Shown piece by piece: positions 2,125 through 20,138 of a DNA stretch of 39,296 nt. The first letter of the stretch is position 1. Each line of letters begins with the position of its first letter. The position numbers and the translations under genes were made by a program. Source of the stretch: a virus. The stretch lies in the IMG/VR virus record IMGVR_UViG_3300042521_001276, positions 1 to 39,296 of that record. One strand, written 5' to 3'. The notes beneath the pieces are model-generated. The model searched no databases. It had not been told where the DNA came from and saw nothing but the letters and a program-made list of their open reading frames with translations.

Positions 2125-2307
2125 TTACTGCTTAAACCAACGGCGAACCTCTCGGATTGCTTTGGGAGCAACCAAAATAAGGGCGCACAAAGACACAAGG
2201 GCGGCTAGAAAAGCAGCCGCAAATTGGGCCGTTTGCACCAAACTTACGGAAAACCATCCGGAAACGGCCCCGATGCTTGAAATAGTAATTGGGTGCTCCT
2301 TGATCAT
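2125..2307 (-). CDS. small membrane protein, holin candidate
   Basis: This 60-residue protein begins MIKEHPITISSIGAVSGWF. It has one strong hydrophobic segment around residues 26-48, rich in Ala, Leu and Val, and a basic tail ending RRWFKQ. That pattern fits a single-pass inner-membrane protein with a cytoplasmic positive C-terminus. Its ATG overlaps the stop of the 144-residue upstream gene by 4 bp (ATGA), so the two are probably translated together. Small membrane proteins in this position are often holins, antiholins or spanin parts. No family-specific motif is visible, so holin is an inference from size, topology and context. Confidence 0.6.
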   Translation of the reverse strand: MIKEHPITISSIGAVSGWFSVSLVQTAQFAAAFLAALVSLCALILVAPKAIREVRRWFKQ

Positions 2308-2738
2308 CGTTTTGTTGAGTAACGGCTACCAAACCACCAGAAAAGCGCCGTGAATGCGCCAAAGGTAATTTCTCCCAGCATTTGTTGCCGCGCATATTCT
2401 GGGGAAGCCGAGAAAACATAGACCAATATGGACAAAAGCGCCCACGTAAGGCCGGGGCGAGTGAACGTCTTAAATGCCTCTACGGCGGTAAAAATGTTGG
2501 CCATAAGCGGGCTAACGCCCGTGGGCACGGCGAAAGGAGCCTGAGATTGCTGTGAACGGGCAAAGGCATCCCAGGCCGCCGCCTTCTCGGCAGATTCCGT
2601 CTTGGCCTGCATAAGCATGATTTCCACCTCGGCGTCTTTCTTCTTGCGCCAAGTCTCAAATATGCCCGTGCCAAGGTGCAAAAGGGAGCCTACAATGCCC
2701 CCTCCGGCTGCGTTAAAGAGCATATCTACGACGTTCAT
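2304..2738 (-). CDS. membrane protein, probable holin
   Basis: This 144-residue protein starts with a glycine-rich hydrophobic segment (about residues 6-25). A charged helical stretch with many Lys, Glu and Ala follows (about 30-65). After that come hydrophobic segments around 95-112 and 121-138, and a basic end. The layout resembles two- or three-pass phage holins, including those annotated in gene transfer agents. Its ATG overlaps the stop of the lipoprotein peptidase gene by 4 bp, and its own stop overlaps the next small membrane gene. The three genes form a tight cassette just before the tail genes, a usual place for lysis functions. Confidence 0.6.
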   Translation of the reverse strand: MNVVDMLFNAAGGGIVGSLLHLGTGIFETWRKKKDAEVEIMLMQAKTESAEKAAAWDAFARSQQSQAPFAVPTGVSPLMANIFTAVEAFKTFTRPGLTWALLSILVYVFSASPEYARQQMLGEITFGAFTALFWWFGSRYSTKR

Positions 2739-3178
2739 CGTGTGGCGGGGTCAAAGACAACGTGGCCGACGTAGCGCCCCACAAGGTCAGCATCCGTGAT
2801 GAACGAGGACTCCGTGTTGTCGTTGCTGTAATTGTTGGCGCCAGCCACGCCCAGCCGGATGCCGTTGTTGGAATAAACCTGATGAAGGCGGGGGATTTGC
2901 CCCGGCATTTTGCGCCAGAGGATGATGTCGCCCACCTTGACGCCGGCAATCTGCACCGGCTCCGCCAGCACGTAGATGTTGCCAAACAGGATGGGCTCCA
3001 TGCTGTGCGTCTCGGTGACCTCATACACCTGCGCTTTGATGGCTGCGGCGGCGTGGAGTGCGACCGCGTAGGCCGTGGCTTTGTGCAGCGAGGAGGTGGG
3101 GCGGCGCCCTTCATTGTCGCGCTTGGAGCAGCCCGCAAGAGCCAGCGCCATCACGAGCAAAATGCGCAACGCGTTCAC
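2735..3178 (-). CDS. Sec11/S26B-like signal peptidase-type lipoprotein
   Basis: I place the start at a GTG at 3178 that overlaps the previous stop (GTGA), giving 147 residues. A hydrophobic N-terminus ends in the lipobox LAGC (Cys17), so the product is probably lipid-anchored and exported. The rest looks like a serine signal peptidase core. HSMEP (58-62) would hold the nucleophile Ser59. VGDIILW (82-88) is the usual beta strand. RLHQV (97-101) puts a His where bacterial type I enzymes have Lys and Sec11/archaeal enzymes have His. GANNYSND (113-120) resembles the acidic loop of Sec11. The gene directly precedes two holin-like genes. A role in lysis or processing is inference. Confidence 0.65.
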   Translation of the reverse strand: MNALRILLVMALALAGCSKRDNEGRRPTSSLHKATAYAVALHAAAAIKAQVYEVTETHSMEPILFGNIYVLAEPVQIAGVKVGDIILWRKMPGQIPRLHQVYSNNGIRLGVAGANNYSNDNTESSFITDADLVGRYVGHVVFDPATR

Positions 3179-3459
3179 AACGGCCTTTCGGGGTCGGGGG
3201 CCGGGGGAACGTAGTTGGCCCAATTAGACACGCCATCAGTAAACACCTCGTTGTCGAGCTTGGGCAGGTTGTCGCCTAGCGCATCGACGCACTCTTGGGA
3301 GAAAAACACGCCGAAACGGCCATCGTCTCGCACGCTAACGCCGGCCCACTGAGACCCCCTGCTGCCATCGCGCTCTCGCAGGAAAGCGCACACACGGGCG
3401 TCGAGCGCGAGGGCGGCGTCGTAGGAGCGGGCCATCATGTATTGGCGGGGGGTGCTCAT
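3175..3459 (-). CDS. conserved-looking hypothetical protein, 94 aa
   Basis: The ATG at 3459 overlaps the stop of the LamG-like gene by 4 bp (ATGA), so I prefer it to an in-frame ATG 15 bases upstream. The protein begins MSTPRQYMMARSYDAAL. It has a central stretch that looks alpha/beta (around SQWAGVSVRDDGRFGVFFS) and ends in a Pro-rich tail (VPPAPDPERPL). I recognise no domain. It sits between the LamG-like virion protein and the lipoprotein peptidase and is coupled to both, so a minor virion or lysis-accessory role is possible but unproven. Confidence 0.6.
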   Translation of the reverse strand: MSTPRQYMMARSYDAALALDARVCAFLRERDGSRGSQWAGVSVRDDGRFGVFFSQECVDALGDNLPKLDNEVFTDGVSNWANYVPPAPDPERPL

Positions 3460-4781
3460 GGGGTGATGCGCCACTTGCGGATCAGGTAGGACGCGATGCG
3501 CGATTGCAGCGGCGTCGAGTCGGCGGCGGAACGGATGATGATTTCGGAGACGGTGATGTTGGAGGGACCAGCGCCGTCATCACGCGAAGCTAGTGTAAAT
3601 CCGCTGGGGGTCGCCGCGCCCACCGTGCCCACGTTGACCGCGCCGTTGTTAAGCCGAAGCGAAGATGCGGTCGTATTGTATATTGCGGTCAAAACACCCC
3701 GAGTCCCAAGCGGCAGTTGAATTTCCGTGCCCGCTGGTTCGCTGCTGCCGCAACGGATGCGAAGGTCTGTGGATGCATCGGACTGGACGATACGCAGGGT
3801 GTCGAACGTGTTGCCGTCGCACAGGGCAAGATTTGCACCCCACGCCACCTGACTCCCCGTAAAATAAACGCTCTCCGGCTGGCTCAGGCTAAATGAAGCC
3901 GCCTTCAGGTAGTCGTTCGAGCCGTCGAAGGTGAGGTAGTTGCCGCCCGACGCAATCGTCAGCACCGGCTGGTTGGCCACCGTCATTTGCACCAGATCGC
4001 GTGCGCCGCAGATGCGGGCACCGAGGGCTCCGGTGGTGTTGATCGTGACGGTCGCCGCGTTGCTGCTGGACTCGGTGAAGGAGGTGGCGAGCTTCGCAGC
4101 GCCGGTAAAGTTGGCGTCGAAGACCAGCGTGCCAGCGATGCCGCTGTAGATTTGGGCGCGGTAGATGATGCCGGTAACTAGTTCGGCCACGCCATTGGAC
4201 CGCGAGCCCACCTCGATAATGTCGGTTGTGTCCCTAATGCTAGTAGCCCCGAGGGTGCTGGTACTTCCATACTGCGTCCATGTAACGCCGTCGGGTGAAG
4301 TATAAGCGGTGCGGGCGCCAGTGGCGACCGCCATTGTCACCCTCACCCACTGCAAAACCCCGGTCAACGCTGCTCCGGCAATCGTCGCGGAGCGTTGGGT
4401 TCCCCCGCTGTCCCAGTGGTCGAAAATAATAGAGGTGGTGGCAAGTCGGAGCAAATACGCACCGCCGCCGCTTGCGAGCTTAGAGATCACCGATGAGCCA
4501 GTTGCCAATGTGCTGGGATTGACCAATACCCTAAGATCAATGTCGCCCGTGATACTCACCGCTGCACTATCCGGCGCGGACGCGTAATTCCCCGCCACCC
4601 CATTCAACACCAGCCCATTCACCGCACTATTCCCGCTCAAATCCCCCACGAGCTGCACCCGGTTGGACCCGTCGTAGACGAGGGAGTCGAGGCGCGAGAT
4701 GTCGTATCTGGCGGCTAGGCCGGCCACGCGATAAGGCGAGAACGTGTCTCGTTCCAGCAGTGCTCTTACGGCGGGAGTCAT
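3456..4781 (-). CDS. virion protein with two LamG/concanavalin-like domains
   Basis: This 441-residue protein appears to contain two jelly-roll lectin-like domains. The first (about residues 45-235) has the sequence style of LamG-like laminin G folds: a WVRVTMAV strand, then SPDGVTWTQYG and the closing strand around RAQIYSGIAG. The second (about 275-430) contains YLTFDGSNDYLKA, the usual opening of LamG_3-type domains, and ends in IASYLIRKWR. Such domains bind carbohydrates or form trimeric shells on phage tails and heads. The start codon directly abuts the stop of the upstream gene. A role in adsorption or virion decoration is inferred from the fold. Confidence 0.7.
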   Translation of the reverse strand: MTPAVRALLERDTFSPYRVAGLAARYDISRLDSLVYDGSNRVQLVGDLSGNSAVNGLVLNGVAGNYASAPDSAAVSITGDIDLRVLVNPSTLATGSSVISKLASGGGAYLLRLATTSIIFDHWDSGGTQRSATIAGAALTGVLQWVRVTMAVATGARTAYTSPDGVTWTQYGSTSTLGATSIRDTTDIIEVGSRSNGVAELVTGIIYRAQIYSGIAGTLVFDANFTGAAKLATSFTESSSNAATVTINTTGALGARICGARDLVQMTVANQPVLTIASGGNYLTFDGSNDYLKAASFSLSQPESVYFTGSQVAWGANLALCDGNTFDTLRIVQSDASTDLRIRCGSSEPAGTEIQLPLGTRGVLTAIYNTTASSLRLNNGAVNVGTVGAATPSGFTLASRDDGAGPSNITVSEIIIRSAADSTPLQSRIASYLIRKWRITP

Positions 4782-5393: not shown

Positions 5394-6257
5394 TTAACGA
5401 CTTTGACGACTGCCGTGAGACTGAAAGCGGGAAAGAAGCTGTCCGTTGGCCTGATTCTGCGGCTTGATAAGCTCCATGGAGAGGTATTCCTTGGCCACCT
5501 GTTCCTCGATCAGAGCCTTATCCACCTGCCCGTCCATGCGCAGAAAATCCGCATACGTGGCGTGGGCCATGTAGTTAAAGAACTCTAGGGGAACGTCCGT
5601 GTTCGTCGTAGCGTCGTAGGGACCATCCCACTGCTTCTTGTAACACACCCAAAAGCCAGCAGCTTCCGTGGAATTGCCCACAACGTGGCACCCGTCGCTT
5701 TGGACGTAAAACGTGTATTCCCCGGCACCATTGAGGTTGTAGGGGAAGGCGTTGAACACGCGGATGAAGGTGTCAACGTCGTTTAGGGCCACCGGGACCA
5801 CAGTGCCCGTGCCGGTGTAGGTTTCCGTGCCCGTCAGCGAGTCGTCAGAAAGTTCAAAAGTGAACACCGCATCATCGCTCACGCTAATCTGCTGCACCCC
5901 ATTAGGGTTGGCCGTCGAGTAGGACAGGCTGGCGATGGTGACATATTGGCCCGAAACGACGTCCCCGTCTAGGTCTGCCGTAGTCGTCACCGTCACCGTG
6001 GTTCCGCTGCGGGTGGCCGTAGAGATGGTGCGGTTGCCGCTAGATGCCGTGTAGCTGAATGGGACAATGTTTAGGGGGCCGGGACGGGCCTCCGCAGCCA
6101 CGATGAATCGCGCCCAGGTGTCGCTCTCCCGATAGGCTTGGTAGCCCCGCCGGTTGATAAAGCTGTTAATCAGCGTGTCTTCGTTTGTCGTAAAGGCATC
6201 CACACCGGCTAAGGCGCGAATCCTGATTAAAAGGTCGGCGTATGTTCCGCTTTGCAT
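5394..6257 (-). CDS. head-to-tail adaptor / tail tubular A-like protein
   Basis: The first 55 residues form a helical segment (MQSGTYADLLIRIRALAGV, then NSFINRRGYQAYRESDTWAR) of the kind seen in gp4/gp11-like podovirus adaptor proteins. A beta-rich insertion runs from about residue 75 to 160. A helical C-terminus follows, with FFNYMAHATYADFLRMDGQ and a Gln/Ser-rich tail. P22 gp4 and T7 gp11 have this general plan and sit below the portal. The gene lies in the late block between capsid and nozzle, where an adaptor is expected. The assignment is by plan and context. Confidence 0.65.
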   Translation of the reverse strand: MQSGTYADLLIRIRALAGVDAFTTNEDTLINSFINRRGYQAYRESDTWARFIVAAEARPGPLNIVPFSYTASSGNRTISTATRSGTTVTVTTTADLDGDVVSGQYVTIASLSYSTANPNGVQQISVSDDAVFTFELSDDSLTGTETYTGTGTVVPVALNDVDTFIRVFNAFPYNLNGAGEYTFYVQSDGCHVVGNSTEAAGFWVCYKKQWDGPYDATTNTDVPLEFFNYMAHATYADFLRMDGQVDKALIEEQVAKEYLSMELIKPQNQANGQLLSRFQSHGSRQSR

Positions 6258-15822: not shown

Positions 15823-15902
15823 ACGGCCATCATCACCATCATTCCCCACATATGTCAAGCATAAGGAAAGCGGCTACCGGCTCCTTTTGACCCATATTTT
15901 TT

Positions 15903-15921
15903 TATAGGGAAGGGACCTATA
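15903..15921. promoter_or_regulatory. TATAGG/CCTATA dyad within A/T tracts near late-block start
   Basis: Arms of 6 bp flank a 7-base spacer. Runs of T lie on either side (15897-15903 and 15925-15933). On the minus strand this gives several -10-like hexamers (TATCCT, TATAAA) upstream of the first late gene and an AAGGAG-like stretch near 15880. It is a candidate late promoter or operator; which hexamer is used cannot be told. Confidence 0.4.
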
Positions 15922-16012
15922 GGATATTTTTTTACAGGTTGAGTGGACCAATCTTAATTCCTAGAGCTGCCCGAGTCGCAATCCCCTCCCCCCCTAGCTG
16001 GGACCTATTGAG

Positions 16013-16041
16013 ACTGAGAATCAGTGTCACTGAGAATCAGT
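16013..16041. promoter_or_regulatory. double palindrome operator candidate
   Basis: ACTGAGAATCAGT occurs twice (16013-16025 and 16029-16041). Each copy has perfect 5-bp arms (ACTGA/TCAGT), centres 16 bp apart. The junction forms a third palindrome, CAGTG-T-CACTG. A dimeric regulator binding cooperatively is the likely reading. Confidence 0.65.
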
Positions 16042-16049
16042 TGCACTGT

Positions 16050-16103
16050 CCATTAGCTATCGGATAGGTAATGGCGGTCCACCATTAGCTGTCTGGTAGC
16101 TAA
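16050..16103. promoter_or_regulatory. paired CCATTAGCT dyads
   Basis: The first element (16050-16074) is a 25-bp imperfect palindrome with arms CCATTA/TAATGG and inner arms CTATC/GATAG. The second starts with the same CCATTAGCT at 16082, 32 bp downstream, and contains TTAGCT/AGCTAA arms. The spacing of about three helical turns suggests one protein binding both on the same DNA face. Confidence 0.6.
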
Positions 16104-16130
16104 CGTGTAGAGAGAACGGGTGTCAATATC

Positions 16131-16205
16131 ACTTACGTAATTGGCTACGGTGAGACGGTAAGCCTTTTTGCCTATGAGACCGGAAAAGGGGTCAGTTACG
16201 TAAGT
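16131..16205. promoter_or_regulatory. inverted ACTTACGTAA / TTACGTAAGT pair
   Basis: Perfect 10-bp arms at 16131-16140 and 16196-16205, each with a TTACGTAA core palindrome, flank 55 bases. They could be two copies of one operator or the ends of a looped structure. Confidence 0.5.
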
Positions 16206-16216
16206 CGATCAAATAA

Positions 16217-16269
16217 GTGTCCAAACGAACACGTGTCCAAACGAACACTAGGCGTGTTCAAGCGAACAC
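16217..16269. repeat. three tandem 16-bp palindromic repeats (iteron or operator array)
   Basis: GTGTCCAAACGAACAC occurs at 16217-16232 and immediately again at 16233-16248. The variant GTGTTCAAGCGAACAC follows at 16254-16269. Each is an inverted repeat of GTGTyC/GAACAC half sites. Start-to-start spacing is 16 then 21 bp. Adjacent, same-size direct repeats beside early promoters resemble origin iterons or a cooperative repressor operator. Confidence 0.75.
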
Positions 16270-16700
16270 TATTCCCCGGCAAACGGGCATTGCTTGGCAT
16301 TACGAGGCCGGCGATTGCCACCCTTGGCATTGCCTCGTGTTGCGCGTCAAATCGCCCCTAAACCGTTCTGGCGGCGAGCCTTTCTGTCACACTCTGTGTC
16401 AAATTGGCTCATTCGCCTGGGCGTTGCCTCGTGGGCCGGTCGTGGCCTTTTAGTGGGCCGGCGGGCATGAGGGAGGATGGGTTGCCAGAAGACCATTGCC
16501 CCCGACTTGCCCGAACTATTGGCCGGACCACACCAACACCGGAGCGGACAACGTGAGTGTGTGCGGATCTCTCTCTCTCTCTATGCTTAGAACAGAAGAT
16601 GCGTGGCTATAGTGCCGCGAGTTGGGCGCACGCTTGACGATTGCGCGAAACTTTAATCAGTTGCGCGAGCAAGCGTTTGCGTGATTCGTGCAAATTGTTC

Positions 16701-16729
16701 TTGAGTTCCGGAATGCGTGCGTGCATATT
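16701..16729 (+). promoter_or_regulatory. candidate early promoter, sigma70-like
   Basis: TTGAGT (16701-16706) and CATATT (16724-16729) are separated by 17 bases; each matches the consensus hexamer at four of six positions. The predicted start lies at about 16736, coinciding with a small reading frame whose transcript could be leaderless. Confidence 0.45.
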
Positions 16730-16735
16730 TGAAGC

Positions 16736-16831
16736 ATGGAAAACATCAACTCCCTCACCCAAATCACTCCGGCGATTGTCTCGCAGGTTTTCGCTCTCTC
16801 ACTCCCGGCGCAAATCTTGATTTCCATTTAA
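16736..16831 (+). CDS. small hydrophobic peptide, 31 aa
   Basis: An ATG-TAA frame 19 bases before the next gene encodes a 31-residue peptide starting MENINSLTQITPAIVSQVF and ending in a hydrophobic segment (LPAQILISI). It lies just downstream of a promoter-like pair. It may be a small early protein or a leader peptide. The frame is short, so chance occurrence is possible. Confidence 0.35.
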   Translation: MENINSLTQITPAIVSQVFALSLPAQILISI

Positions 16832-16849
16832 CAAAAAAACTTTCCCACC

Positions 16850-17299
16850 ATGAAAAAAACGAACGCACACAAACGGAAACACGCACTTTTTGACCGCCTT
16901 GCGCGCCTTGGATTCACTTCCGGCGAATCCGCCACGCTCCGCCGAGTTGAGATGACGTTGCACCGTTGGGCGGAACGCGAATGCGGCGATGGATCAAACT
17001 GGTCAATTGAACGCGACGATACGACGGGTAAACCGTTTAACGTCTGGCACGGCGGTGGTGCGCGGCGCCAATATGCCATTGCAGATCGCGAGGCAGGAGC
17101 GTTGCGCCGTTTGTCCGCGATTGTGGCAGAGCGTAATGAGCGCAACCCCGGCACCCCAAACCACGTTTTGGCCTACCATCAACAAGACTGTCGCGGATGC
17201 ATGGTTTATCTCGTGTCAATTGCGCAATTGACGGACGAAACTGGGTTCATCGCCCCGGTCGAGCAATACTACCAAAACGGACTGGCAGTTTGCGTGTAA
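16850..17299 (+). CDS. conserved hypothetical early protein, 149 aa
   Basis: The protein begins MKKTNAHKRKHALFDRLARL. It contains EMTLHRWAERECG (about 45-57), ERDDTTGKPFNVW (about 64-76) and AGALRRLSAIV (about 92-102). I recall this combination from uncharacterised proteins of many unrelated phages, where it also lies in the early region. The motif order (basic helical start, RWAE.ECGDG, TGKP, AGALRR, a Cys-containing DCRGC near 131-135) is preserved. Biochemical function is unknown to me. A terminator follows the stop codon at once, so the gene can form its own short transcript from the early promoter. Confidence 0.75.
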   Translation: MKKTNAHKRKHALFDRLARLGFTSGESATLRRVEMTLHRWAERECGDGSNWSIERDDTTGKPFNVWHGGGARRQYAIADREAGALRRLSAIVAERNERNPGTPNHVLAYHQQDCRGCMVYLVSIAQLTDETGFIAPVEQYYQNGLAVCV

Positions 17300-17320
17300 A
17301 TCAACGCGCTTCGCCCTTTG

Positions 17321-17354
17321 CCCTGCCTGCTCATGCGTGAGCGGCGGGGTTTTT
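17321..17354 (+). terminator. Rho-independent terminator after first early gene
   Basis: The arms CCCTGCCTGCTCA and TGAGCGGCGGGG pair with one bulged T and one G-U, close a 4-base loop and are followed by five T residues. The sequence resembles the terminator at 17959-17987. Confidence 0.85.
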
Positions 17355-17402
17355 GGGCGCAAACCGGCATTTGCCAGACACGGAAAACACAAAAACAATA
17401 CT

Positions 17403-17933
17403 ATGAAATTATCAAAAGATTGCCTGATCGAAAAGATCTGTTCCAAAGACGCGACGCGGCCCGCCATTAATCGCCCGTTTCTGGACATTAAAGACGGCAT
17501 CGCCCACTTGATCGGCACCAATGGCCGCGCCATTGCTGTAATTCCGGTTGAAATCGGGCAAGAAGACTCGCAAGGGCATATTCCTATTGACGGCCTAAAG
17601 GCCGCGCGCAAGGCCGCAAGGGGAAAGGGCGCAGAAATTGACGCAAAGGCGAACGGAAGCTTCGCACTGGCAACCGGGCAGAGTTTTCCGAGGGGTGTTG
17701 ACGCAACCTTTCCAAATTGGCGCCAAGTTATTCCGGCGGAAAAACCCTTCGTTTTTGAAATTGGTTTAGACGCTGAAATCCTGCTTAACCTTGCGCAAGC
17801 CTTAGGCTCTGAGGGGCAAGTGCGCTTAAGCTTCACCGGGCCGCAAGACCCTGTATTGGTGCGGGCAATGAGCGGCCCTTTGAAGCACAAGGACGAAGTG
17901 AAGGCCGTGATAATGCCAATGCGCATTTCGTAA
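17403..17933 (+). CDS. compact sliding clamp-like protein (DnaN-like), 176 aa
   Basis: The ATG at 17403 is preferred over an upstream frame extension that runs through the terminator. The protein has the C-terminal signature of beta clamps: GPQDPVLVRAMSG followed by KAVIMPMRIS, matching the PVxVR ... VMPMR pattern. A mid-region FPNWRQVIPAEK corresponds to the FPDxxxVIP motif of clamp domains. At 176 residues it is about half of a bacterial beta subunit (about 366 aa). It would need to form a ring from more subunits or act as an adaptor. It is flanked on both sides by terminators. It probably recruits host polymerase, since no phage polymerase is recognised here. Confidence 0.8.
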   Translation: MKLSKDCLIEKICSKDATRPAINRPFLDIKDGIAHLIGTNGRAIAVIPVEIGQEDSQGHIPIDGLKAARKAARGKGAEIDAKANGSFALATGQSFPRGVDATFPNWRQVIPAEKPFVFEIGLDAEILLNLAQALGSEGQVRLSFTGPQDPVLVRAMSGPLKHKDEVKAVIMPMRIS

Positions 17934-17958
17934 AGCCAAGCCAAGCCAAAGCCCTTCG

Positions 17959-17987
17959 CCCTGCTCCGTAAATGGGGCGGGGTTTTT
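17959..17987 (+). terminator. Rho-independent terminator after clamp-like gene
   Basis: CCCTGCTCC pairs with GGGGCGGGG over 9 bp (two G-U), with a 6-base loop and five T residues following. The stem and tail closely resemble those at 17321-17354. Confidence 0.85.
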
Positions 17988-17999
17988 GGCTGAAAACTC

Positions 18000-18125
18000 A
18001 TGAAAACAAACGCTTGCCGGCCCACGTCTTGCCACGATTGCCCCAAACTCCGCCCGCTTGATTTTTTCCTTTGGGCGCTCATTTGCGCAGCAATGACGGC
18101 GCTTCTCTGGGCGCTGACGGGATAA
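18000..18125 (+). CDS. small Cys-rich membrane peptide, 41 aa
   Basis: This short frame starts 12 bases after the terminator T-run and reads MKTNACRPTSCHDCPKLRPL, then a hydrophobic helix (about residues 21-39, with FFLWALICAAM) and TAA. Three Cys in nine residues (6, 11, 14) before a single membrane span suggest a metal- or disulphide-linked head on a small membrane protein. It is too short for a family call. Its start position after the terminator and its clear head-plus-span pattern support coding. Confidence 0.5.
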   Translation: MKTNACRPTSCHDCPKLRPLDFFLWALICAAMTALLWALTG

Positions 18126-18201
18126 CACTCTTTTCCCGCCGTTCCTTGCCCTTTTGCGGGCATTTGATGCGCGGGCAATAGCAACACACACGCACACACC
18201 C

Positions 18202-18252
18202 ATGACGACACAAAACGCCCAGGAATTGACACAAACGCCCACCAAAACATGA
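18202..18252 (+). CDS. threonine-rich 16-residue leader-like peptide
   Basis: The frame encodes MTTQNAQELTQTPTKT, six Thr in 16 residues, and its TGA overlaps the ATG of the 103-residue gene (ATGA). Such coupling to the next start is the rule in this early block. It may be a leader peptide that sets translation of the next gene. It is very short, so coding is supported mainly by the exact overlap. Confidence 0.4.
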   Translation: MTTQNAQELTQTPTKT

Positions 18253-18560
18253 AAACCACAGAACACGCCAAAGAATGGTCCACAGCCAAGAAACTCAGCT
18301 ATACAAGGGGCAAACTGTCCCTGATTTCCGCCTTCGGCGATAGCATAGGAAAAGATGTTAACAAGGCCGAACTTGCTTTGTGCGTGGCCATGCTTGCCAG
18401 CGCCGAGGCAGCGCACGCCGATTTGCTTGCCGCGCTTGAGGCTTTGTCGTTTGAAAGTTCCCACTTTTTAAGCGGCGAGGGAAACAATGGCCAATTTGTC
18501 GCAAACGCCCTCGAAAACGCGTTCGCCGCCATCACCCGCGCCAAGGGGGTGCAATCGTGA
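18249..18560 (+). CDS. hypothetical early protein, 103 aa
   Basis: The protein (MKTTEHAKEWSTAKKLSYTR) has a basic start, then Ala/Leu-rich helices (about 40-65 with LALCVAMLASAEAAHADLLA) and a C-terminal helical part with GQFVANALENAFAAITRA. It looks like an all-helical bundle of the kind seen in small phage regulators or inhibitors. No family is recognised. It is coupled at both ends, ATGA upstream and GTGA downstream. Confidence 0.6.
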   Translation: MKTTEHAKEWSTAKKLSYTRGKLSLISAFGDSIGKDVNKAELALCVAMLASAEAAHADLLAALEALSFESSHFLSGEGNNGQFVANALENAFAAITRAKGVQS

Positions 18561-18718
18561 AGTACAAAGGCATAACCGTCACGCGGACAACCTACCAAGG
18601 GCTTTCCGCCTACAGGGTCAACAATTGGTTTGAGCTTGCGGCAAACTTGGCAACCGTCAAACGGTGGATTGATATTGAAATTGCCGCTCGACTGGCAAGG
18701 CGCGCCCGTAGCACCTAA
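18557..18718 (+). CDS. small basic protein, 53 aa, GTG start
   Basis: A GTG that overlaps the previous stop (GTGA) opens a 53-codon frame ending TAA. The product starts (M)KYKGITVTRTTYQGLSAYR and then has a helix with ELAANLATVKRWIDIEIAA and a basic end. The beta-then-helix plan and strong basic charge (net positive) resemble small DNA-mimic-binding or single-domain phage early proteins. Function unknown. Confidence 0.55.
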   Translation: MKYKGITVTRTTYQGLSAYRVNNWFELAANLATVKRWIDIEIAARLARRARST

Positions 18719-18840
18719 AGGGTGCCGAATGCCCTTAAAACGCACGGAAACGGCCTTATGCTCCCCAAGCCAAGGCACTTGACAAGCGTCCCATGGCGGT
18801 CAACCTCTGAAAAGTTGGGTTGGGTTTCGTTCATTGCACC

Positions 18841-18873
18841 GAAAGGGGGGCGGGCTTCAACCGCTCCCCTTTC
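18841..18873. repeat. strong 12-bp inverted repeat
   Basis: GAAAGGGGGGCG and CGCTCCCCTTTC pair over 12 bp (one G-U) around a 9-base loop. No T-run follows, so it is either a weak terminator, an RNA-processing site or a transcript-stabilising hairpin at the 3' end of the preceding small genes. Confidence 0.7.
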
Positions 18874-19009
18874 TCGTGTGCATCAGATAGTCTCTGTGCT
18901 CCAGAGAGGCGAACAGGTAATGCGGCGCGGGTTTCACTGTGGTCAAATATACGCCTGTCCCCGTAATCGCATAAAAGCGGGGGGCCGCCTCTCTGGATCA
19001 TTGTGAGTA

Positions 19010-19040
19010 TTGACAAAACGAAAAGCACCCGTGATAGAGT
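19010..19040 (+). promoter_or_regulatory. candidate promoter with consensus -35 box
   Basis: A perfect TTGACA (19010-19015) is followed 19 bases later by TAGAGT (19035-19040) preceded by TG at the extended -10 position. The predicted transcript begins near 19047 and meets a terminator 50-80 bases on. Confidence 0.55.
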
Positions 19041-19046
19041 ATTGCT

Positions 19047-19126
19047 TGTCAGTTGAGGGTGTGCGCCCGAATGGACTTTGTCAGTTGTAAGGAAGCCCGG
19101 AAGAGCGCACACTCTCCGGGCTTTTT
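19047..19126 (+). ncRNA. candidate terminated leader RNA / attenuator
   Basis: Between a promoter-like pair and the terminator lies an RNA of about 80 bases. It has GTGTGCGC at 19059-19066, exactly complementary to GCGCACAC at 19105-19112 in the loop region of the terminator hairpin. The two pairings would be exclusive or form a pseudoknot. A short repeat (TGTCAGTTG) occurs twice in it (about 19048 and 19079). This is the layout of an attenuator or a small regulatory RNA. Confidence 0.45.
19095..19126 (+). terminator. Rho-independent terminator just before the 60-aa gene
   Basis: GCCCGGA (19095-19101) pairs with TCCGGGC (19115-19121), extended by GAG/CTC with a bulged A, followed by five T residues. 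The next gene starts only 7 bases after the T-run. Confidence 0.88.
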
Positions 19127-19132
19127 ATTTAC

Positions 19133-19315
19133 ATGACACAAGTGCCGCGAGTTTGGGAAGTGACATCGGCCTCCTCAAAAGAGGAACGGGCGAACGTGCG
19201 CGAATGGCGCAGGGCACGGGATAGCTTTCAAAACGACATCGCCCGCTATGGCTTCGGAACTAAGCTGGGCAAAGCCGCGTGGAAGGAGCGCGTTTCCAAA
19301 CTACGCACAAAATAA
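19133..19315 (+). CDS. small basic early protein, 60 aa
   Basis: The frame (MTQVPRVWEVTSASSKEERA) opens 7 bases after a strong terminator and has no clear ribosome-binding site, so the ATG may be reached only by read-through or from a later start. It is rich in Arg and Lys with a C-terminal helix (KLGKAAWKERVSKLRTK). The composition is consistent with a small DNA- or RNA-binding protein. No family is recognised. Confidence 0.5.
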   Translation: MTQVPRVWEVTSASSKEERANVREWRRARDSFQNDIARYGFGTKLGKAAWKERVSKLRTK

Positions 19316-19785
19316 CCTCCCCGCTTCGGCCCGCAGTCCGATGCAATAGTGACCAACTGCGAATCCGGCCATGATGCTGCGTCTGACGCATTCATGGAGC
19401 GGAACAAGCCAGCGGCGAATACAAATAAGCCTCTGGTCCAGTGCCGGTCTTGAAGAATTAGAGTTTAGACCCAACCGGCAGAGAATAGGCGGGAGCGATC
19501 CCGGTGAACGTAGAGCGGCAGCAACTCGTGGGAATTGGCCGTCTGGCACGAGGCTCTAGAGACAAGATACCATGGTGTCACAAGGCACGCAGAGGTAAAT
19601 CTCTCTTCACTCCTTCAAGGGGTGAAGTGTGTCCAGACCACGGCAGAACAGCAGGCATCAGAGTGTGAAATCTTTAGTGGTTCTCATAGGTAAACTAAGC
19701 GTGAAAAACGGAAGTCAAGTCTAAAGAATACAGAAAAGATTGGTATTTAGCTTGAATGTTAAATGCCGGGAACCATAACCGAGGA
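19316..19785. other. gene-free 470-bp region rich in inverted repeats
   Basis: No credible coding frame is seen here. Several inverted repeats are: TGCCGGT with ACCGGCA around 19442-19482, CGGGAGCGATCCCG near 19490-19503, CTTCAC/GTGAAG with an extended 9-bp stem at 19605-19627, and a long-range GTCTGG with CCAGAC pairing (about 19540 with 19635) that encloses CTCTAGAG and ACCATGGT palindromes. This could be a structured non-coding RNA, an intron remnant or a DNA-level site. I cannot assign it to a known family. Confidence 0.45.
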
Positions 19786-19875
19786 ATGGCAAGCATCACC
19801 CTCGCGCTAATGATGGCCGGATTCGGAATTTTCCTCATCGGGCTTGCGCGTTTCGTTGAACTTTTCCGCAAATGA
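19786..19875 (+). CDS. single-pass membrane peptide, 29 aa
   Basis: The ATG follows a GAGG purine run and opens a 29-codon frame starting MASITLALMMAGFGIFLIGL and ending FRK. The first 20 residues form one hydrophobic helix, and the tail is basic. Its TGA overlaps the next ATG (ATGA). It begins a chain of five genes each joined by ATGA, which argues for coding despite the small size. Confidence 0.55.
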   Translation: MASITLALMMAGFGIFLIGLARFVELFRK

Positions 19876-20138
19876 ATCAAACATTCCAAACTGTGGTCAA
19901 ATTGGCCTCCCGCACGACAGAAAATGGCGTCAATGGCACGAATTGCGTGTCTGGGGCCGGGGGTGGAGCGGAAGGCGTTAATTTGGCCGCAATGGGCCGC
20001 GCCGGCTGTTCTGGTGGGGATATGGGTGCTCCGAATAGGTCTTTTTCCACGCTCCATCTTGCCAACGGTGGATGCGTCCTGTCAACGGTGCCACTTTTTA
20101 ACGACATTGACGACGACAGCCACGAGGCCCGCGCATGA
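19872..20138 (+). CDS. hypothetical early protein, 88 aa
   Basis: The start overlaps the previous stop and the end overlaps the next start, both as ATGA, which favours this frame over a longer hydrophobic alternative frame at 19924-20160. The protein starts MNQTFQTVVKLASRTTENGV. The middle is Gly/Ala/Ser/Asn-rich, and the end is acidic (FNDIDDDSHEARA). The composition is unusual, and the alternative frame, which contains a Trp-rich membrane-like segment, remains possible. Confidence 0.4.
   Translation: MNQTFQTVVKLASRTTENGVNGTNCVSGAGGGAEGVNLAAMGRAGCSGGDMGAPNRSFSTLHLANGGCVLSTVPLFNDIDDDSHEARA

Follow-up and report, generated by a model that had tools for sequence, protein, structure and literature searches.

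Signal peptidases of the Ser-His type occur typically in archaea, in the endoplasmic reticulum and in some Gram-positive and other bacteria. In the phage genome analysed here, a predicted lipoprotein (P0001) with motifs of this enzyme type is encoded downstream of a putative tail fibre gene and directly upstream of a holin-like gene, which raises the question of whether the protein is a true S26B (Sec11-type) peptidase and, if so, what a phage would gain from it. The original prediction, made from the sequence alone, had proposed a lipoprotein that might process host or phage membrane proteins, or be a new lysis or exclusion factor.

The window, i.e. the whole stretch of DNA analysed, corresponds to a single IMG/VR virus record 39,296 bases long. 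Bases 1-1116 repeat bases 38181-39296 at 95.9% identity over 1,116 bp, which points to a genome that is complete in essence, measures about 38.2 kb and has overlapping ends. The repeat is read as an overlap left by the assembly of a genome that is circular or terminally redundant, and its mismatches as strain variation. The virus is a tailed phage; it encodes a SU10-type major capsid protein (PF17236, E=1.4e-50), a SU10-like portal (PF23899, E=1.9e-5) and a terminase large subunit identified by PHROG (E=7.4e-17). The nearest named phage is C75C1 (OQ984151.1), with 59.6% identity for the capsid and 39.9% for the terminase; the family search of C75C1 gave no match to the S26B model TIGR02228. 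Elsewhere in the window, residues 725-797 of an 865-aa protein (33477-36074, minus strand) weakly match Hint/intein-like families (PF01079, E=0.014; PF13403, E=0.015), and a 946-aa protein in the virion-gene region (29361-32201, minus strand) has no convincing family match, the best being PF21210 (E=0.028). A section of about 4 kb (15860-20130), located between the terminase-side and early genes, contains no convincing long ORFs on either strand.

The open reading frame of P0001 proved to be real, and all the motifs reported for it (HSMEP, VGDII, RLHQV and GANNYSND) are present in its translation. The N-terminus consists of VNALRILLVMALALAG followed by CSKRDNEG..., where the lipobox is MNALRILLVMALALAG directly before the cysteine; the lipobox scan indicated this as the only convincing lipobox on the coding strand of the window. 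Cleavage and lipidation of the protein at Cys17 by the host are predicted from this signal. The junctions P0004/P0001, P0001/P0002 and P0002/P0003 are all formed by 4-nt GTGA/ATGA start/stop overlaps, thereby P0004, P0001, P0002 and P0003 look like one translationally coupled unit (Table 1). The two small membrane genes named in the original prediction as coupled to the lipoprotein do exist and carry these overlaps, whereas their holin assignment is weak (E=0.019 and E=0.13). Diverged relatives of P0004 sit after a LamG-type tail gene in two other viral loci (L009 and L013).

Table 1. Features of the P0001 locus (positions of the window)
Feature	Position	Strand	Description and evidence
P0001	2735..3178	(-)	147-aa lipoprotein with C-terminal S26B (Sec11/SipW/archaeal) signal-peptidase domain; GTG start
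Signal peptide and lipobox of P0001 (predicted)	3128..3178	(-)	residues 1-17, LALAG before C17, +2 Ser; translation and lipobox scan
Ser59 codon (SMEP), predicted nucleophile	3002..3004	(-)	62/62 relatives; invariant with SEC11A fragment
His99 codon, predicted general base	2882..2884	(-)	62/62 relatives; invariant with SEC11A fragment
Asp120 codon, predicted third triad member	2819..2821	(-)	D 61/62, E 1/62; invariant with SEC11A fragment
P0004, 99 aa, upstream of P0001	3175..3474	(-)	4-nt GTGA overlap with P0001
Putative tail fibre / receptor-binding protein, 441 aa, LamG-like domain	3456..4781	(-)	PF13385 E=0.0082 (below cut-off); phrog_5313 E=5.1e-14 (function unknown)
P0002, 144-aa holin-like membrane protein, downstream of P0001	2304..2738	(-)	4-nt ATGA overlap; PF11351 GTA_holin_3TM E=0.019 (weak, below cut-off)
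P0003, 60 aa, one hydrophobic segment, possible second lysis gene	2125..2307	(-)	phrog_6597 holin E=0.13 (weak); 4-nt overlap with P0002

The family of P0001 has been assigned through profile analysis. The NCBIfam model TIGR02228 (sigpep_I_arch) matches residues 40-140 with E=1.3e-8 and 34.8 bits, which is below the curated equivalog cut-off of 51.85 bits; on this score P0001 is a diverged relative of the family and not an equivalog. The Ser-Lys model TIGR02227 (S26A) is not listed for P0001 at E<=10, and His99 stands where the lysine would be. As for the controls, E. coli LepB reaches 150.8 bits to TIGR02227 and 18.8 bits to TIGR02228, and TIGR02228 is not listed for LexA and UmuD. The S26A families, LexA and UmuD are ruled out by the profile scores as the nearest family. 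When 84,980 genomes were scanned with an alignment led by SEC11A, 80 S26B loci were obtained, mostly of Bacillota and archaea, and our own S26B HMM was built from 81 relatives, one of them from a viral contig. P0001 obtained 26.1 bits against this HMM, and the best of 2000 shuffles 5.5 bits. With an HMM of the trimmed domain the scores were 34.7 bits for P0001, 30.3 for LepB, 5.0 for LexA and 1.4 for UmuD; given the LepB value, the trimmed-domain HMM alone cannot split S26B from S26A, a distinction which is made by TIGR02228 and the histidine. Searches of Pfam, PHROG and PADLOC returned nothing for P0001, and phmmer against the PDB gave only SEC11A (E=1.7). The profile similarity to S26 on which the original prediction depended has thus been found with TIGR02228; profile, alignment and fold evidence agree on the Sec11/S26B Ser-His type, and P0001 is very probably an S26B-domain lipoprotein. 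Its branch in the tree is very long (4.93) and joined to another long branch, a pairing from which the origin of P0001 cannot be read.

In the alignment of 62 relatives, the serine and histidine columns are invariant and the Asp120 column holds aspartate in all but one sequence, which has glutamate. Because SMEP was among the patterns used to gather the relatives, the conservation of the Ser column partly reflects this selection, which did not extend to the His and Asp columns. P0001 departs from two positions that are conserved in 62/62 relatives: the Arg after His (HR[VI]) is replaced by Gln100, and the GD aspartate (G-D-N) by Ala114. Both changes were missing from the original prediction, and they make activity likely but not certain; P0001 is probably catalytically active. 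The three corresponding invariant residues are found at positions 3, 43 and 69 of the SEC11A fragment, with a His-to-Asp spacing of 26. A Ser-His-Asp triad has been reported for Sec11A, and the catalytic serine is Ser56 (S56A mutant, PMC13385932), so the other invariant residues are His96 and Asp122. Asp120 of P0001 corresponds to the Asp122 position of SEC11A. The first Asp is reportedly dispensable in the signal peptidase of M. voltae. For this enzyme Ser52, His122 and Asp148 alone are given as crucial, also with a His-Asp spacing of 26 (PMC4343526); that source prints the M. voltae residues in the FlaK row, yet cites the type I signal peptidase mutagenesis (Bardy 2005).

The AlphaFold2 model of P0001, made with 46 S26B rows, has a pLDDT of 83.8 (>90 in much of the core) and a pTM of 0.69. 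Foldseek against the PDB ranks SEC11A and SEC11C in the first two places, followed by LexA and SpsB. The VIA-align Z-scores are 10.4 for SipA, 9.4 for LepB, 9.4 for LexA, 8.5 for SEC11C and 8.0 for SEC11A, which means that the structure alone supports the LexA/signal peptidase superfamily and not S26B specifically. The alignment used for modelling is made of S26B proteins, so the fold evidence is not independent of the sequence evidence. A signal-peptidase fold of P0001 is supported by the model. In BFVD the best match is A0A6J5PXA0, followed by Pandoravirus signal peptidases.

The whole of P0001 is present at 100% identity in three IMG/VR contigs, and a fourth encodes the last 22 residues at its edge. 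The three complete copies differ at a single DNA position, synonymous and common to two of them; Ser59 and His99, the residues whose conservation was to be checked, are kept in these identical copies. UniProt A0A6J5PXA0 (“Sigpep_I_arch, signal peptidase I”, uncultured Caudovirales phage) is 84% identical over the 147 residues of P0001, so the gene had already been catalogued in another phage, as a database entry with an automatic name. Relatives of the holin-like protein P0002 were detected in 18 viral loci. In seven of them (L010-L012 and L014-L017, 78-80% identity) a 194-aa gene precedes the holin-like gene, and the LamG-type gene and the lipoprotein are both absent. The locus L013 possesses the LamG-type gene and a 104-aa gene without the lipoprotein. 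In L009 a LamG-type gene and then an 87-aa gene precede the slot, which is filled there, directly before the holin-like gene, by another lipoprotein of papain-like type. The existence of close relatives without the P0001 gene indicates an accessory gene, and in the few cases available the presence of the peptidase gene goes with the fibre-like module.

The L009 lipoprotein (IMGVR_UViG_3300007363_000080, 5466-5993) shows Cys..His..Glu features and a weak match to PF18021 (E=0.0067); its AlphaFold model is unreliable (pLDDT 40), so the papain assignment rests on the weak Pfam match. It is similar in size to P0001 and occupies the same slot, but would belong to a different fold family.

Pattern scans of 2.9 million viral contigs at the DNA level (SMEP..GD..H[QR]V or HRV), confirmed by HMM, revealed S26B domains only in this phage, L038 and L138; the remaining pattern matches are unrelated to S26B by HMM. 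In L138, a 3.3-kb contig, the S26B-type ORF (3-326; TIGR02228, 35.4 bits) misses its N-terminus and lies directly upstream of a gene that by eye resembles a terminase large subunit. This ORF has the S26B domain in common with P0001 and differs in its terminase-like neighbour. No match to P0001 was obtained by tblastn in the phage and plasmid collections, and a genome scan with P0001 as the confirming sequence gave 589 stretches, none of them confirmed. The SEC11A-like tblastn matches in the phage collection are weak, or come mainly from UNVERIFIED records from human faeces. In the literature searched, no paper on a phage-encoded S26B peptidase was found. Ser-His signal peptidases are thus very rare in phage sequence.

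The most plausible reading of P0001 is that of a lipid-anchored endopeptidase of the S26B type which faces the periplasm and, in the infected cell, works on proteins of the envelope (probability about 0.6). Lipidation of Cys17 would fall to the Sec pathway and signal peptidase II of the host, and the +2 Ser would favour sorting to the outer membrane if the host follows E. coli-like Lol rules. The domain would act as a diverged Ser59-His99-Asp120 serine endopeptidase on the periplasmic face of the envelope, presumably made together with the coupled tail-fibre-like and holin-like genes, and may cleave exported or membrane-proximal proteins of the host or the phage. Instead of the usual transmembrane anchor P0001 has a lipobox signal peptide, and ordinary signal-peptide cleavage at the inner membrane is therefore doubtful. 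Its likeliest use would be to alter the host envelope while the cell is infected, for instance by acting on the phage receptor (superinfection exclusion), and not to remove signal peptides in general, although a role in exclusion or at the receptor is tentative. Several observations count against the reading as an envelope endopeptidase: (i) the missed TIGR02228 cut-off; (ii) Gln100 and Ala114; (iii) the very long branch; (iv) the fibre-like gene of L013 without a lipoprotein. So does the nature of the known exclusion lipoproteins, which are small proteins that act by binding and not by cleavage.

The main rival is a pseudo-enzyme, in which the S26B fold would be reused as a binding lipoprotein, for instance blocking a receptor like T5 Llp, without proteolysis. 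R100Q and D114A at positions invariant in 62 relatives, together with the very long branch, speak for it, and so does SipA of S. pyogenes, the top VIA-align match, a signal-peptidase homologue which is not known to act by catalysis. P0001 also follows a tail-fibre-like gene, an arrangement known from Llp (PMC9586334), and this points in the same direction. A binding-only protein would, however, not need the Ser, the His and the second Asp, all of which are kept, and the first Asp may be dispensable if the short list of crucial M. voltae residues is a guide; the pseudo-enzyme appears improbable, though it deserves to be taken seriously. An explanation by chance, i.e. the motif in an unrelated lipoprotein, would agree with the empty Pfam search and the marginal phmmer match, but the E-value of TIGR02228, the shuffles that fall short and a model fold matching signal peptidases and LexA leave it very little room.

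A function in lysis, as had also been proposed, would mean that P0001 activates lysis proteins or sets them free, or that it weakens the outer membrane at the end of infection, taking the place of a spanin or an unrecognised endolysin. P0001 is translationally coupled to the holin-like gene, a lipoprotein beside a holin resembles the position of an o-spanin, and the reported absence of an endolysin held for the main ORFs searched with Pfam and PHROGs. An endolysin may, however, be too diverged to be seen, S26 enzymes cut polypeptide and not glycan, and relatives with 47-84% identical holin-like proteins have no P0001. In the lysis-cassette test P0001 matched no lysis family of Pfam or PHROGs and was not conserved with the holin-like gene, so beyond adjacency the lysis role found no support, close relatives keeping the holin-like gene without P0001; we consider it unlikely. 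The same low likelihood is given to a maturation protease for an exported or virion protein encoded by the phage. P0001 is encoded among structural genes and S26B enzymes can serve few substrates, as SipW does for TasA (PMC10269814), but no phage substrate has been identified and closely related phages with similar structural genes do without the enzyme. The Llp-like arrangement combined with an enzyme domain, and the holin-like gene kept without P0001, make the envelope-modifying endopeptidase the preferred reading; the other lipoprotein in the L009 slot, and the lack of one in relatives that have no LamG-type gene, also count in its favour, and by analogy with T5 Llp the position downstream of the tail-fibre-like gene may slightly favour exclusion over lysis.

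A lipid-anchored S26B enzyme encoded by a phage operon would represent a portable protease of the periplasm, and with P0001 it could be tested directly whether enzymatic editing of envelope proteins by phages takes place late in infection. It is conceivable, if rather speculative, that the S26B lipoprotein described here and the papain-like one of L009 represent a class of protease-bearing phage lipoproteins, encoded at an exchangeable site that follows the tail-fibre gene and cleaving envelope proteins such as the receptor, thereby providing an enzymatic and not a binding form of superinfection exclusion.

Compared to the S26B peptidases (SEC11A/C, archaeal Sec11 and Bacillus SipW), P0001 has the Ser-His-Asp positions, the SMEP and VGD motifs and the core fold in common. 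The differences relate to the lipid anchor in place of a transmembrane helix, HQV in place of HRV, GANN in place of GD(A/N)N, and the bacteriophage origin of the gene. Among exclusion lipoproteins, T5 Llp has its gene immediately after that of the receptor-binding protein (PMC9586334), and Rtp45, from phage Rtp, acts from the periplasmic side (PMC12685063); the known representatives are small binding proteins and do not cleave (PMC9586334, PMC12685063). Like Llp and Rtp45, P0001 is a phage lipoprotein encoded by a small accessory gene. In contrast to both, it is a protein of 147 aa with an enzyme domain, and a 99-aa gene is located between P0001 and the LamG-like putative fibre gene.
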